Part shown: in pieces, positions 50,135 through 56,015 of the stretch | Layout of the letters: every line of letters starts with the position of its first letter | How positions within the stretch are numbered: position 1 is the stretch's first letter | Origin: Ruminococcus flavefaciens AE3010 | GTDB taxonomy: Bacteria; Bacillota; Clostridia; Oscillospirales; Ruminococcaceae | Length of the DNA stretch: 64,000 nt | Direction of reading: 5' to 3' | Assembly (NCBI RefSeq): GCF_000526795.1 | Contig: NZ_JAGT01000001.1 | Span: 767,001 to 831,000, forward strand | The notes under the pieces: model-generated | The model's database searches: none | What the model saw: the letters and a program-made list of their open reading frames with translations, nothing else | Told to the model about the DNA's origin: nothing | Position numbers and translations under genes: made by a program

Positions 50135-50163
50135 TTGCAATCAGTACTGTTTTGTAGTATAAT
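50135..50163 (+). promoter_or_regulatory. Promoter of the MBOAT operon
   Basis: TTGCAA (50135-50140), 17-bp spacer, TATAAT (50158-50163). The transcript would start near 50170, giving a leader of about 105 nt. Confidence 0.78.
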
Positions 50164-50275: not shown

Positions 50276-51676
50276 ATGGTTTTCTCGAGACTATTCTTTA
50301 TATATATCTTTCTCCCAGTCTGCCTTTTGTGCTATGCACTGGCAAGAGGGACGAAAGCAAAAAATCTGGTGTTGATAGTTTTCTCGCTTATTTTTTACGC
50401 TTGGGGCGAGCCCGTATATATCTTCCTGATGCTGACAACTGCTGTGGTGAACTACACCGCGGGACTTATCATCGGGAAATATCAGGGACAAAAGGGGGAT
50501 ACGGCTGCTACTGCTGCAGCGGTGGTCTATGACCTTCTCATGCTTGGCGTTTTCAAATACAGCGGCTTTATTGTGGAAAATATCAACGCCCTTTTTTCAT
50601 CTTCAATACCTGTTCCCGATATAAGGCTGCCTATCGGTATAAGCTTTTATACCTTCCAGACAGTTTCCTATATCATCGACTGTCACTGGGAAAAGGTGGA
50701 GCCCCAGAAGAAATTCGGCAAATTCCTGCTTTACCTGACGCTGTTCCCACAGCTCGTGGCAGGACCAATCGTCCGCTACAGCACTATAGAAAAAGAGATA
50801 AACGACCGAAAGATCGTGCTCAGCGATGTTTCTTACGGACTCAACCGCGTGGCTCTAGGTCTCGGCAAAAAGGTGCTCCTTGCAAACCAGCTAAGCATCA
50901 TCGCTGACAGCTTCCTCGGAAATATAGGCAGCTCCACAATGTTCGGAGCATGGTACGGCGCTATAGCCTACGGCTTGCAGATATACTTTGACTTCTCGGG
51001 ATATTCCGATATAGCCATAGGTCTGGGACGCATATTCGGCTTCCACTTCGATGAGAACTTCGACCACCCTTTCATATGCAAGGACATCACCGAATTCTGG
51101 CAGCGCTGGCATATCTCCCTCAGCACGTTTTTCCGTGATTACGTGCTCTATATCCCCATATTCGGAAAGCGAAGAAAGTACGGCGGGCTTTTCCTCGTAT
51201 GGCTCTGCACGGGAATATGGCACGGCGCAAGCTGGAACTTCATCATCTGGGGACTTTACTACGGCATTTTCGTATTCATTGAAATGCTTATCGGCAAGAA
51301 GCGCATGAAAAAAGTTCCTGTAGTGATAAGACATTTTTACAGCAAGCTTGTCATAATCATCGGATTCGGCATATTCTATTTCGAGAAGCTTGACAAGCTG
51401 GGCACATTCTTCAAGACTGCATTCGGCTTCGGCGAAAACGGCTTCCTTGCCGTTCAGGACAAGATATCCGTTATCAATAATATGTACCTGCTGACTGTGG
51501 CTGTAATATGCTGCTTCCCTATCATCAAGCTCGTCAAACAGACTGCGGACAAGCACTTCGTTACAAAGGCAGCCGTTTCCTCCGCAGCAGCTGTTGCGGC
51601 TGCTCTACTGCTCATAGTTACGAGCATAATGCTGGTAGCTTCTACAGCAAATCCTTTCCTTTATTTCAGATTCTAA
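50276..51676 (+). CDS. MBOAT family membrane O-acyltransferase (AlgI/DltB-like)
   Basis: 466 aa, about ten membrane helices. Catalytic-type histidines are in FWQRWHISL (His279) and CTGIWHGASWNF (His316), the MBOAT signature; FPQLVAGPIVRY is near 157. MBOATs such as AlgI and DltB pass acyl groups from a cytoplasmic carrier to extracellular polymers. Downstream are a DHHW/SGNH protein, an FkbH-like enzyme and an acyl carrier protein, so the donor is probably an acyl-ACP. The polymer and acyl group are unknown. Confidence 0.93.
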   Translation: MVFSRLFFIYIFLPVCLLCYALARGTKAKNLVLIVFSLIFYAWGEPVYIFLMLTTAVVNYTAGLIIGKYQGQKGDTAATAAAVVYDLLMLGVFKYSGFIVENINALFSSSIPVPDIRLPIGISFYTFQTVSYIIDCHWEKVEPQKKFGKFLLYLTLFPQLVAGPIVRYSTIEKEINDRKIVLSDVSYGLNRVALGLGKKVLLANQLSIIADSFLGNIGSSTMFGAWYGAIAYGLQIYFDFSGYSDIAIGLGRIFGFHFDENFDHPFICKDITEFWQRWHISLSTFFRDYVLYIPIFGKRRKYGGLFLVWLCTGIWHGASWNFIIWGLYYGIFVFIEMLIGKKRMKKVPVVIRHFYSKLVIIIGFGIFYFEKLDKLGTFFKTAFGFGENGFLAVQDKISVINNMYLLTVAVICCFPIIKLVKQTADKHFVTKAAVSSAAAVAAALLLIVTSIMLVASTANPFLYFRF

Positions 51677-51688
51677 CGAGGCAAATCC

Positions 51689-53125
51689 ATGACCGATTAC
51701 AAAAACAAAGACAAGCTGCCCGAGCCTGTCATCTCAATCGAGGCGTCAGACCGCGCAGGAACTTCAATAGATGTACCTATCAAGGCTAAAAAGCTGAAAA
51801 AACAGCAGCGCAAAAAGGCTCTCAACATTATTTCCCTTGCAAATGTGATAGCCATAAGCGCTGTATTTGTGGGCGGATTCATTTATGTGGCGCTTCTGCC
51901 CCATGAGACAAAAGCCGACGACGAGAACCGCTATCTCACCGAATTCCCCGAATTCTCCGCAAAGAGCTATGCAAGCGGTGAATTTACAGAGGGCGTTGCC
52001 GATTACTTTGACGATACCGTTCACGACAGAGCTCATATCAAGGAGTTCATCTCCGACTATATAATCCAGCTGAAAGGCAGAAAATACGGCAATGACGGCG
52101 AGGAAGCCGAGCTCTTCGGCAGCGGATTTGAGAAGAAAGCTAACCTGACTACCACCACACCTGTGAGCACAGCAACTTCTGTATCGACTACAGTCACAAC
52201 TGCTGTTCAGGAGGAAACTACAGCTCCCGCTGAGGAAGCTCCTGCCGACGGCGAGCTCACAAACAATATCCTCATCGTCAATAAACGAGGAGTCACACTT
52301 TACGGCGGTGCATGGGGCACTGAGCAGGAGTACGCTTCCTATGTAAATCTCTACAAGGAGAAGCTGCCCAACGTAAATGTTTACTCAATGGTACTGCCCA
52401 CGTCCAGCTCATTCTATCTGCCCGAAAAGTATCAGAACCTTGCATACAGCGAAAAAGAGGACTTCGACAAGATAGACGCTGCACTCAACAATGTTATCTC
52501 AGTTGATGCCTACGGTATACTCAATGCCCATAAGGACGAGGCTATATACTCCCGTACCGACCACCACTGGCAGCCTCTCGGCGCTTATTACGCCGTCCAG
52601 CAGTTCGCTCTTACAGCGGGTGTTCCCTATCCCGAGCTCTCGGAGTATGAGACAGTCACCCTGCCCGGCTATGTCGGCACCCTTTATATGTACACACAGA
52701 GCGCGACGCTCATGAATAATCCAGAGGACTTTGTTTATTACAAGCCTCAGACACCCGTAACAGTAACACAGTACAACACACGTTTTGAAAATCCCGTTGC
52801 TGCAAATCTTCTCTTTGACCCGTCATTTATGGCTAATTCAGGCTATTATATGGTTTTCGGATCAGACGAGAGGATAGTCCATGTAAACACAGAATGCAAA
52901 AACGGAAGAAATCTTGTCATCTTCAAGGACAGCTACGGAAACGCCCTGCTGCCTATGCTGACAAGCTCCTTTGAGAACATATATCTCTGCGATATACGTT
53001 ATTTCGACCTGAACGCCATTGACTTCATCAACAGAGTCGGCGGAACGGATCTCCTTTTTGCCATGTGTTCATTCTCCGCAGTGGGCGGCAACAGGACCTG
53101 TATATACAACAATCTGACAAAATAA
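51689..53125 (+). CDS. DHHW-family membrane-anchored SGNH-like protein (AlgX/AlgJ/DltD-like role)
   Basis: 478 aa. A basic cytoplasmic N-terminus, one membrane helix (about 45-68), a Thr/Ser-rich insert (about 153-185), and an extracytoplasmic SGNH-like domain with TDHHWQPLGAYYA (Asp291, His292, His293, Trp294) and the later FKDSYGNALLP carrying the likely catalytic Ser. Such proteins complete or assist O-acylation outside the cell. It begins 12 bases after the MBOAT stop and ends 9 bases before the FkbH-like gene. Confidence 0.88.
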   Translation: MTDYKNKDKLPEPVISIEASDRAGTSIDVPIKAKKLKKQQRKKALNIISLANVIAISAVFVGGFIYVALLPHETKADDENRYLTEFPEFSAKSYASGEFTEGVADYFDDTVHDRAHIKEFISDYIIQLKGRKYGNDGEEAELFGSGFEKKANLTTTTPVSTATSVSTTVTTAVQEETTAPAEEAPADGELTNNILIVNKRGVTLYGGAWGTEQEYASYVNLYKEKLPNVNVYSMVLPTSSSFYLPEKYQNLAYSEKEDFDKIDAALNNVISVDAYGILNAHKDEAIYSRTDHHWQPLGAYYAVQQFALTAGVPYPELSEYETVTLPGYVGTLYMYTQSATLMNNPEDFVYYKPQTPVTVTQYNTRFENPVAANLLFDPSFMANSGYYMVFGSDERIVHVNTECKNGRNLVIFKDSYGNALLPMLTSSFENIYLCDIRYFDLNAIDFINRVGGTDLLFAMCSFSAVGGNRTCIYNNLTK

Positions 53126-53134
53126 GGTGATATT

Positions 53135-54931
53135 ATGAGAGAACTCAACTTTCCATTCGACGGCAAGGATATAATCCGCAGACGACTTGCGCTCCGCAAG
53201 CAGCTGCTTGCTGACGGCTGCGTCCGCGTAAAGAAGAGGATCGCTGTGCTGGGGGGCTCAACGGTCAATCATATTGTATCCGCACTTGAGCTTTTTCTGC
53301 TGAATTTCGGCATTGAGCCCGAATTCTATCTATCGGAGTACAACAAGTTCTACGAGGACGCCGTTTTCGGCAATCCCGAGCTTGACAGCTTCGATCCCGA
53401 TATAATCTATGTCCATACCACCTCACGAAATCTTACCATGCTCCCTGAGAGCCCTGCTGAGACTCCCGAGAGAGTGGAGCAGCGCCTTAACGATCAGTTC
53501 GCCTACTTCAAGCAGGTGTGGGACAGCCTCAAGCAGCACTTCTCATGCCCTGTTATACAGAACAATTTCGAGCTTCCCCTGTTCAGACGCACAGGAAGCT
53601 ACGACGGCTGGAGCACCGCAGGTCAGGCTGCCTTCATTCAGCGCATGAACGTTATGCTGTCGGACTACGCCCGCAATACCAGAGGTATCTACATCCACGA
53701 TATAAACTATCTCTCCGCAGTCTGCGGTCTGGCAAACTGGCACGACGCCGAGGCTTGGTATCTCTACAAGTATGCCATGAGCACTAATGTTATCCCCGAT
53801 CTTGCATACAGCCTTGCCTGCATAATCAAATCTATCTACGGCAAGAACCACAAGGTCATTGACCTTGATCTTGATAATACGCTGTGGGGCGGAGTTATCG
53901 GCGACGACGGTCAGGAAGGCATAGAGATCGGTCAGGAGACCGCTGTGGGACAGGCTTTCAGCGAGTTCCAAAGCTTTATCAAGGGCTACAAGGACTACGG
54001 CGTGCTTCTTGCGGTATGCTCCAAGAACGACGAAGAAAATGCGCTTCTTGGTCTCGATCACCCCTGCGGTGTGCTCAAAGCCTCGGATTTCGTCTCCATA
54101 AAGGCAAACTGGGAGTCCAAGGACCGTAATATCGCAGAAACTGCCGCTGATCTCAGTCTCGGACTGGACAGTTTTGTATTCATCGACGACAATCCTGCGG
54201 AGTGCGCTATGATAGAGGGACAGCTCCCTATGGTACAGACCATAAACCTGAGCACTGTCCATGAGGCTATGTACAGGCTCACACGCAGCGGCTTCTTCGA
54301 GGTGACAGCTGTCTCCGACGACGATATGCACCGCTCGGAAATGTATGCCGCAAATGCTCAGAGAGCCGCTCAGCTCAGAAGCTTCGAGAGCTATGAGGAC
54401 TATCTGCTGAGCCTTGATATGCACGCTGTTATCTGCGGCTTTGATCCCGTTTATATACAGCGTATAACTCAGCTCGCCAACAAGAGCAACCAGTTCAATC
54501 TCACCACACGCCGCTATAACGAGGACGAGATACAGAACGTCAGCACAAGTCCCGACCATATCTGCATCTGCGGCAGACTTCTTGATAAATTCGGCGATAA
54601 CGGCATAGTATCCGTTGTCATAGGCAGGTGCAGGGACAAGGAGCTGGATATCGAGCTGTGGCTCATGAGCTGCCGAGTGCTGAAAAGAGACATGGAGCTT
54701 GCAATGCTGGACGAGCTTGTGCGCCGTGCAAGAGAAAAAGGCATCACACGCATAAACGGCTACTACTATAAGACACACAAAAATAACATGGTAGCCGAGC
54801 TTTACGGCTCATTCGGCTTCACTCTCGCCGAAAAGCTTGATAACGGGGATTCCGTATGGTATCTCGACATCGAAGGCTATAAAAACAAGAACAAGGTAAT
54901 AAAAATTCGTGATAAGGAGAATTCAGAATGA
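53135..54931 (+). CDS. FkbH-like HAD-IIIC protein
   Basis: 598 aa in three parts: an N-terminal SGNH-like region (about 30-215; LGGSTVNHI at 39-47), a HAD-IIIC domain with VIDLDLDNTLWGGVIGDDG (Asp245 and Asp247) and FIDDNPAECAMIE, and a C-terminal GNAT-like domain (about 440-590). FkbH enzymes take 1,3-bisphosphoglycerate, remove phosphate and load glycerate onto an ACP. The next gene is an ACP, overlapping by 4 bases, so this protein probably loads it. Whether the loaded unit is glycerate here is inference. Confidence 0.9.
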   Translation: MRELNFPFDGKDIIRRRLALRKQLLADGCVRVKKRIAVLGGSTVNHIVSALELFLLNFGIEPEFYLSEYNKFYEDAVFGNPELDSFDPDIIYVHTTSRNLTMLPESPAETPERVEQRLNDQFAYFKQVWDSLKQHFSCPVIQNNFELPLFRRTGSYDGWSTAGQAAFIQRMNVMLSDYARNTRGIYIHDINYLSAVCGLANWHDAEAWYLYKYAMSTNVIPDLAYSLACIIKSIYGKNHKVIDLDLDNTLWGGVIGDDGQEGIEIGQETAVGQAFSEFQSFIKGYKDYGVLLAVCSKNDEENALLGLDHPCGVLKASDFVSIKANWESKDRNIAETAADLSLGLDSFVFIDDNPAECAMIEGQLPMVQTINLSTVHEAMYRLTRSGFFEVTAVSDDDMHRSEMYAANAQRAAQLRSFESYEDYLLSLDMHAVICGFDPVYIQRITQLANKSNQFNLTTRRYNEDEIQNVSTSPDHICICGRLLDKFGDNGIVSVVIGRCRDKELDIELWLMSCRVLKRDMELAMLDELVRRAREKGITRINGYYYKTHKNNMVAELYGSFGFTLAEKLDNGDSVWYLDIEGYKNKNKVIKIRDKENSE

Positions 54932-55170
54932 ATAATAATGAAATACTGCCCCGTCTCAATGAGGTATTCAGAGATGTTTTCGGTGACTCTTCGCTTAATG
55001 TGAATGAGAACACCACATCTGCCGATATTGAGGACTGGGACAGTCTTGAGCACATCAATCTCATTGCCGCAGTTGAAAACGAGTTCGGACTTCGCTTTAA
55101 GATGCGCGAGGTATCGGGCATGAAGAATGTGGGAGAGATGCTCGCTATTATTGCCGAAAGAGGTAAATAA
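54928..55170 (+). CDS. Acyl carrier protein
   Basis: 80 aa. A four-helix carrier with the phosphopantetheine site DWDSLEHINL (Ser39). It is not the fatty-acid AcpP type (DSLDxVEL) but a dedicated carrier, consistent with its position directly after the FkbH-like loader. It overlaps that gene by 4 bases and the metallophosphoesterase by 1. Confidence 0.94.
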   Translation: MNNNEILPRLNEVFRDVFGDSSLNVNENTTSADIEDWDSLEHINLIAAVENEFGLRFKMREVSGMKNVGEMLAIIAERGK

Positions 55171-56015
55171 TGTCAAAGAAAGCAAAAAAACGTATAACCC
55201 TTGCTGCAATATGTGCAGTACTATGCGCACTGAGCGCATGGGGCTTCGCTATGAAGAACGTGTACTACAATGTGAAAGCAGAGGGCTTCGACCAGAATGT
55301 AAGGATAGTCTTTATATCAGACCTGCACAACTGCTTTTACGGAAATACCGACAATTCCAAGCTCATTAAGGCAGTCAAAGAGGCTGAGCCCGATATGGTC
55401 GTATTCGGCGGTGACGTCATAGACATGTGGGGCGGAACAGAACACGCTCTTGACCTCATGTCCGCACTCAGCAAGGAGTACCCCTGCTTCTATTCCCCGG
55501 GAAATCACGAGGAGATGAGAAGCGATATTGACGAATTCTACGATGAAGCCCGCAAGATATGTCCCCTGCTCATGGGCAAGGACTACGCCGACATCACTGT
55601 AAAGGAACAGGATATCCGCCTTTTCGGTGCTATAAACGGCACTGTCTGCTACAGCTATTCCACTCAGATTGAGGAATGCTTCGATAATATGGACGATAAG
55701 CACTACAATATTCTGGTCGCTCATCAGCCCGAGGATATAGACTATTACCTCGGAAAGTACTGCGACAACGCCAAGGACTTCGATCTTATCCTTTCGGGTC
55801 ACGCTCACGGCGGTCAGTGGAGAATTCCAAAGATACTCGATCAGGGACTTTATGCTCCCGAGCAGGGCATCTTCCCAAAGTACACCACGGGTATGTATCA
55901 ATACTGCGATACTACTCATATAATCAGCCGCGGACTGGCAAGACCTATGCGTATGATATTCATACCGCGTATTTTCAACCGTCCAGAGCTCTCCGTAATT
56001 GATATAAACAACTGA
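55170..56015 (+). CDS. Membrane-anchored metallophosphoesterase (YkuE/YaeI-like)
   Basis: 281 aa. An N-terminal membrane anchor (about 9-27), then a calcineurin-like phosphoesterase with FISDLHNC (near 48), FGGDVIDMW (near 75), SPGNHEE (near 110) and GHAHGGQWRIP (near 210), all five metal-binding motifs. The active site would face outside. Relatives act on phospholipid or phosphodiester headgroups. Being last in the MBOAT operon suggests a role in turnover or removal of carrier or lipid-linked intermediates; the substrate is unknown. Confidence 0.9.
   Translation: MSKKAKKRITLAAICAVLCALSAWGFAMKNVYYNVKAEGFDQNVRIVFISDLHNCFYGNTDNSKLIKAVKEAEPDMVVFGGDVIDMWGGTEHALDLMSALSKEYPCFYSPGNHEEMRSDIDEFYDEARKICPLLMGKDYADITVKEQDIRLFGAINGTVCYSYSTQIEECFDNMDDKHYNILVAHQPEDIDYYLGKYCDNAKDFDLILSGHAHGGQWRIPKILDQGLYAPEQGIFPKYTTGMYQYCDTTHIISRGLARPMRMIFIPRIFNRPELSVIDINN

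Follow-up and report, generated by a model that had tools for sequence, protein, structure and literature searches.

The window analysed here is a stretch of 64,000 nucleotides of the Ruminococcus flavefaciens AE3010 genome (contig NZ_JAGT01000001.1, positions 767,001 to 831,000). On its plus strand, at 50276-56015, it carries a five-gene operon which the list of open reading frames (ORFs) resolves into an MBOAT O-acyltransferase, an SGNH protein of the DHHW type, an FkbH (HAD-IIIC) enzyme, an acyl carrier protein (ACP) and a metallophosphoesterase. The features on which the argument below depends are these:

50135..50163, plus strand: promoter-like site TTGCAA-17-TATAAT, from a consensus scan only (10/12 matches)
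50276..51676, plus strand: MBOAT O-acyltransferase, 466 amino acids (aa); PF03062 96.5 bits, E 2.4e-27; TIGR04091 154.6 bits
51152..51178, plus strand: IPIFGKRRK, residues 293-301 of the MBOAT, at the position of PLGG[NS]R in other MBOATs and of DltC docking on DltB
51221..51223, plus strand: catalytic His316 of the MBOAT (WHGA), invariant in 32/32 aligned MBOATs (a chosen set)
51656..51673, plus strand: C-terminal acyl-shuttle motif FLYFRF (FXYXXF) with Tyr463; F461, Y463 and F466 invariant in 32/32
51689..53125, plus strand: DHHW-family SGNH protein, 478 aa, presumed extracellular acyl transferase; PF14286 E 7.9e-41
53135..54931, plus strand: FkbH/HAD-IIIC enzyme, 598 aa, presumed ACP loader; TIGR01686 276.7 bits and residue comparison
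54928..55170, plus strand: acyl carrier protein, 80 aa, attachment Ser39; PF00550 22 bits (gathering score 20.8), E 2e-04
55170..56015, plus strand: YaeI/LpxG-like metallophosphoesterase, 281 aa, accessory; PF00149 E 2.7e-16

The tight linkage claimed in a preliminary description of this DNA is borne out: gaps of 12 and 9 bases are followed by overlaps of 4 and 1, the best Pfam match of each of the five proteins exceeds its gathering score, and for FkbH NCBIfam matches above cut-off agree. The catalytic motifs are all present as well (Ser39 of the ACP, His316 of the MBOAT, DHHW at 291-294 and KDSY with Ser415 in the SGNH protein). The single promoter of the preliminary description fares less well; a candidate does lie upstream of the first gene, but it is only suggestive, since the scanned stretch contains 21 promoter-like sites versus 9.8 expected from shuffles. 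The genome has one FkbH and three MBOATs in total, and zero matches to DltD (PF04914) anywhere. The nearest relatives of the operon are found in other R. flavefaciens strains, with FkbH 94% identical in MA2007 and YL228, and dN/dS against MA2007 is, in operon order, 0.038, 0.075, 0.042, 0.029 and 0.203. Gene order and orientation kept in relatives, together with values of 0.029-0.075 for the first four genes, place the operon beyond chance.

Searching one genome per species for FkbH yielded 115 relatives; 80 loci were retained, and counts were made on those with enough flank. Among the 41 closest (L034-L073 and L080), the DHHW gene lies upstream of FkbH in 38/38 and the MBOAT gene in 31/31, the ACP gene follows FkbH in 36/37, and the phosphoesterase comes after in 28/33. 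At the remaining 39 loci the ACP follows FkbH in 35/38, and the phosphoesterase occurs in 0/36; of the 19 whose flanks reach 8 kb in either direction, 13 have an MBOAT within that distance. The misses of the ACP at L060 and L088 stem from start-codon choice, the gene being present at both. MBOAT, DHHW, FkbH and ACP are a conserved unit and the phosphoesterase is an accessory, so the absence from relatives that the preliminary description had named as grounds for rejection is not what we found. FkbH, ACP and MBOAT also occur together in bins of Bacilli, Clostridia and Erysipelotrichaceae, in one Treponema bin, on S. meliloti pSymB (no more than 8 kb from capsule export genes), on a Rhodobacteraceae plasmid and on Tistrella pTM1; none of the other plasmid FkbH neighbourhoods examined has an MBOAT.

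TIGR01686 matches 60/149 relatives and 13/299 genomes of an even phylum sample, our genome being counted in both. Neighbourhoods were taken for all 19 above-cut-off matches outside the genus in these two lists, and those of L142, L148, L149, L151 and L152 include an MBOAT; at L148, L149 and L152 at least two tandem DHHW ORFs stand between MBOAT and FkbH. A quick tree was built for 73 FkbHs; the 44 linked to an MBOAT all belong to one set of 60 rows, along with 12 unlinked ones and 4 from cut loci, while tetronate-type reference FkbHs fall outside it, a placement that is unsure given long branches. A quick MBOAT tree hinted that separate MBOAT lineages had each recruited FkbH-ACP on their own, which we do not claim because the approximately unbiased test does not reject a single clade of 38 FkbH-locus MBOATs versus two carrier-less paralogues (p 0.52). 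Mutual exclusion of FkbH (60/149 genomes) and DltD (5/149, all outside the genus) was also considered; zero genomes share them, and the numbers are too small to mean much. Distant loci add SDR, MaoC, VOC and AcpS genes (identified by Pfam in one example each) and hold another SGNH-like family, whose example has no Pfam match and was named by reading. At six of the 39 (L079, L082, L084, L089, L098 and L109) FkbH, a MaoC-like gene and mostly an ACP adjoin NeuB/NeuC/NeuA-like genes, again by reading, and an acyl group on nonulosonic acid is possible there.

The hallmarks of envelope acylation by MBOAT/SGNH pairs are found in the first two genes, namely catalytic His316 and an FXYXXF tail in the MBOAT, and a PF14286 partner with its catalytic residues. 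The alignment of 32 in which these MBOAT residues are invariant does not include L078, whose tail reads FIYARI; FXYXXF ends 66/75 listed MBOAT ORFs, and the other nine are L078, the own-genome paralogue L115 and seven cut or split ORFs. PatA is described as acetylating the tyrosine of its FXYXXF tail from acetyl-CoA (PMC12148441; this and the other sources cited by PubMed Central number were available in part), and the C-terminus and invariant histidine of our MBOAT fit the acyl-tyrosine mechanism given there. With the DltB model TIGR04091 the window MBOAT stays below the cut-off of 375 bits, as do the other MBOATs tested (113-170). Some MBOATs depart from the usual build. At L095, L099 and L111 the MBOAT is spread over two ORFs (about 370 and 115 aa), the second with the FXYXXF tail, which is either a frameshift or a real split. 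The MBOAT paralogue at L115:6468-7844, beside a DHHW gene, has lost its FXYXXF tail and also the RWH anchor typical of the others, and has possibly changed function.

The cytoplasmic face of the MBOAT offers a clue to its acyl donor. Residues of DltB that contact DltC are Met302, Val305, Ile306, Met309, Lys312 and Arg317 according to the available part of PMC11035591, and in an alignment counted back from His336 this segment coincides with IPIFGKRRK of the window MBOAT. The own-genome paralogue L114, near which there is no PP-binding match, has IPLGGNRKG at the same place. As a control we used 80 stretches around MBOATs of the even phylum sample, some of them ending at contig ends, with 83 MBOAT ORFs. 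The strict motif, whose pattern was fixed before the count, occurs in 71/76 MBOATs that have no AMP-ligase in the stretch and in 0/7 that have one (Fisher exact test, p 1.9e-7); the relaxed form LGG[NS], set after the misses had been seen, gives 74/76 and 0/7 (p 9e-9), relatedness being ignored in both tests. Four of the seven ligase-linked MBOATs are DltB-like by reading and three are others, and no FkbH was found in the 80 control stretches. At the FkbH loci only 1/59 MBOATs (that of L076) has LGG[NS], and 1/6 (that of L142) at further FkbH loci; eleven ORFs shorter than 400 aa were dropped from this count, and three second MBOATs of a locus, all with the motif, were set aside. Human HHAT uses palmitoyl-CoA, and it aligns IPVGGSQ at the motif position (a weak match, E 2.3e-4). 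IPLGGSK is the sequence there in an MBOAT of N. gonorrhoeae whose C-terminus, FIYANF, is the tail published for PatA. Three MBOATs from Lawsonia, Sphingomonas and Loktanella, for which no carrier gene is listed, also contain the motif, which an annotated DltB of E. casseliflavus lacks. On its donor face the window MBOAT looks like the MBOATs beside an AMP-ligase and a carrier and not like the others, and the sequence signature points to a carrier, not acyl-CoA, as its putative acyl donor. The motif letters PLGG and GGNR were not found in the MBOAT papers searched.

The presumed source of the cargo is FkbH, which scores 276.7 bits with TIGR01686 (cut-off 146.65), 63.3 with the HAD-IIIC model (cut-off 35.75) and E 1.7e-08 with Pfam FkbH_N, and shows DLDNT at 245-249, Cys513 and Thr458. 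We compared it with four reference FkbHs, from a tetronate-type operon (Methylosinus), two FabH-linked clusters and one methoxymalonate-type cassette, which are taken as makers of glyceryl-ACP because of their gene context and published FkbH work (PMC7489565, PMC3679948); a fifth plasmid FkbH, L134, was excluded from both comparison groups. D245, D247, N248, T249, S296, N298, K329, D351, D352, S512, C513 and R514 are identical in 4/4 references, and K297 is arginine in one. In the parts of PMC7489565 and PMC3679948 available, known FkbH activity begins with 1,3-bisphosphoglycerate. The solved structure closest to the ACP is 2lml (E 2.3e-13). Glyceryl appears the most likely cargo of the ACP. 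Elsewhere in the genome, at C1:2781000-2797000 (L159), there is another acyl-ACP cluster, with an AMP-ligase, two ACP-like genes and enoyl-CoA-hydratase-like genes by reading; no MBOAT match was found there.

The DHHW protein has 4nzk as its closest solved structure (E 4.8e-83), followed by B. cereus PatB1, 5v8d (E 2.9e-07). For the phosphoesterase the preliminary description had proposed the handling of a by-product, a role we reject because the gene is not conserved: it is absent from 5/33 close and 36/36 distant loci. Its dN/dS, 0.203, exceeds that of the other four genes, and the N-terminus of the protein reads, by inspection only, as a signal anchor that would place it outside the cell and so out of reach of a by-product formed in the cytoplasm.

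By sequence, carrier-fed acylation of the surface is a well-supported prediction for this operon, and the Dlt-like logic proposed at the outset holds up through the conserved neighbourhood, the FXYXXF shuttle tail and the donor face. In full, the operon probably encodes a pathway in which a carrier protein feeds an MBOAT/SGNH pair that O-acylates a cell-surface polymer, with glyceryl as the most likely cargo. Every chemical step of it is a reading of sequences, as are the glyceryl group and the polymer. FkbH would load the phosphopantetheine arm at Ser39 of the ACP with an acyl group of three carbons, spending no ATP; this group is most likely glyceryl, drawn from 1,3-bisphosphoglycerate by way of its acyl phosphate. 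The ACP would dock at MBOAT segment 293-301 on the cytoplasmic face, and His316 would move the acyl group to Tyr463 in the MBOAT's own FLYFRF tail at the outer face. The DHHW protein would then accept it on Ser415 and esterify with it a hydroxyl group on a polymer of the wall or membrane; the phosphoesterase would be a variable accessory, probably acting outside. Teichoic acid was considered as the target. There are two sulfatase-family genes, of which the only one scanned reaches 21 bits versus the 970-bit LtaS cut-off, and one gene of the CDP-glycerol transferase family, which by reading seems to be in a glycan cluster; this is not decisive. The glyceryl ester of gellan was tried as a precedent, and nothing on its genes was among the matches listed.

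Several observations weigh against this reading. The ACP model matched no carrier gene in any control stretch, those of DltB included, which is no test of absence; carrier absence in the controls therefore rests on the absent AMP-ligase and FkbH. Some loci break the rule of the signature: the motif persists near FkbH at L142 and at L076 (no ACP was seen at the latter), L210 is without it and has neither AMP-ligase nor FkbH, and L227 lacks both the motif and the usual anchor. FastTree was run on 125 rows without the motif columns and without L115, L123 and L227, and in the resulting tree linkage differs within 6 independent pairs. In 3-5 of these the motif changes in the opposite direction and in none in the same direction (p 0.06-0.25), a test that takes account of relatedness and is underpowered because there are only 6 pairs. 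Outside the genus 11/19 FkbH neighbourhoods have no MBOAT, and 3 more (L138, L146, L150) are short contigs. Residue 458 of FkbH is threonine in 87/87 of its own group, some of which have no MBOAT, and glycine in all four references, so its substrate may differ; SDR and MaoC beside FkbH-ACP at many distant loci suggest that the loaded group is altered there. The case of C. jejuni cuts both ways. In favour, it offers a precedent for a glycerate-derived group on a surface glycan: its flagellin glycan bears dimethylglyceric acid and the locus includes the FkbH-domain gene cj1302 (PMC7099621, PMC3068675, PMC3958885), and strain 12664, in which cj1302 is a pseudogene, is without this group according to the available part of PMC7099621. 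Against, strain 12661, without cj1301, is reported to be without it too, and cj1295 is required (PMC7099621, PMC3068675, PMC3958885, each available in part).

Threonine 458 and the SDR and MaoC partners also favour a different cargo on the same route, either a lactyl-like hydroxy acid or a phosphoglyceryl group trimmed by the outside phosphoesterase, whose extracellular look and presence in 28/33 close loci would suit the latter. We consider this rather unlikely: FkbH retains the HAD residues D245, D247, K329, D351 and D352, no modifying enzyme is encoded in the window operon, and FkbH activity as known uses 1,3-bisphosphoglycerate (PMC7489565, PMC3679948, in part). The glyceryl donor of the preliminary description stays plausible only, most catalytic residues agreeing with FkbHs of the glyceryl-ACP type and residue 458 not. 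Less probable still is that the MBOAT and DHHW protein form an ordinary O-acetyltransferase pair using acetyl-CoA and that FkbH-ACP is merely co-transcribed and has another role. PatB1, the first characterised DHHW-family member, is an O-acetyltransferase (PMC9487903, in part), and the two further MBOATs of the genome lie beside GDSL-type and DHHW genes with no PP-binding match near; against this, FkbH-ACP is found linked to an MBOAT again and again, in other phyla too and in the company of different presumed partners, and the window MBOAT is without the LGG[NS] that paralogue L114 retains. That FkbH-ACP feeds a secondary metabolite is very improbable: FkbH is best known from polyketide and non-ribosomal peptide synthetase (NRPS) clusters and a giant NRPS locus exists outside the window (C1:681719-745931; its end is some 71 kb upstream of the operon, its longest frame has 8673 aa, and PP-binding matches it 20 times), but no NRPS or polyketide synthase gene was recognised in the window on reading its ORF list, MBOAT-DHHW neighbours are kept in 31/31 close loci, and polyketide-type FkbHs lie outside the clade in the quick, long-branched tree. 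The earlier remark that there is no polyketide gene here is thus true of the window, and the genome at large carries the NRPS locus.

Returning to carrier-fed acylation with a glyceryl cargo, we found no earlier description of surface acylation by FkbH, ACP and MBOAT among the matches listed from open-licence PubMed Central literature, and those mentioning FkbH and MBOAT together concern aeruginosin-type peptides only. A 2025 paper states that, outside Dlt, MBOAT/SGNH pathways have no carrier protein (PMC12148441); the window operon, in which a non-Dlt MBOAT/SGNH system is paired with a carrier, contradicts this generalisation. A third carrier-fed kind, not Dlt, came to notice through MBOATs without LGG[NS]: at L239, L240 and L241 (Bacillota) an AMP-binding enzyme and a small protein resembling a carrier accompany the MBOAT, and L239 and L240 also have an Orn/DAP-type pyridoxal-phosphate (PLP) decarboxylase. 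The carrier-like proteins score 17.1, 22.4 and 21.1 bits with PP-binding, whose cut-off is 20.8. An SGNH partner is weakly indicated, at L240 only (17.6 bits versus 32.9). These loci suggest that loaders are interchangeable. We tentatively propose that there could be a class of carrier-fed MBOAT/SGNH export pathways with swappable loaders (a DltA-type ligase, an AMP-ligase with or without PLP decarboxylase, or FkbH), whose FkbH branch taps 1,3-bisphosphoglycerate directly to put glyceryl esters on surface polymers without ATP, and in which a single MBOAT motif at the cytoplasmic face tells whether the donor is CoA or a carrier. If true, glycolysis would drive a second route for decorating the surfaces of bacteria, with related systems in Firmicutes of rumen and gut and in S. 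meliloti, the symbiont of alfalfa; the donor used by an MBOAT could also be told by a simple sequence test. On a Klebsiella electrica plasmid (L246, gammaproteobacterial) genes annotated as DltD, MBOAT, AMP-binding protein and acyl carrier protein are found together.

Comparison with known systems shows both likenesses and differences. It shares with Dlt (DltA-B-C-D and DltX) a loader, a dedicated carrier beside the MBOAT, an extracellular SGNH partner and the acyl-tyrosine shuttle, as well as a carrier docking segment without LGG[NS]. Dlt, however, has AMP-forming DltA where FkbH stands here and DltD where the DHHW protein stands, its shuttle tyrosine is on DltX whereas here it is fused to the MBOAT, and its cargo is D-alanine for teichoic acid, here presumably glyceryl. 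The DltA model TIGR01734 gives 30 matches in the genome, 0 above cut-off and most of them in the NRPS locus. With no DltA or DltD and the DltB model below its cut-off, the operon would work like Dlt yet is not a member of Dlt. PatA/PatB and PatA1/PatB1, which O-acetylate peptidoglycan and wall polymers respectively, have the same fused FXYXXF tail, catalytic histidine and SGNH partner, of the DHHW type in PatB1 too, but PatA uses acetyl-CoA with no carrier, and the PLGG[NS] donor-face motif is replaced in the window MBOAT. Tetronate (glycerate-utilisation) and methoxymalonyl-ACP operons share FkbH, a stand-alone ACP and catalytic residues; there FkbH has glycine in place of Thr458 and glyceryl enters polyketides via FabH-like or dehydrogenase enzymes, whereas here the ACP lies beside an MBOAT. 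The C. jejuni flagellin locus likewise joins an FkbH-domain gene to a glycerate-derived group on a surface glycan, with the difference that the group there decorates pseudaminic acid.

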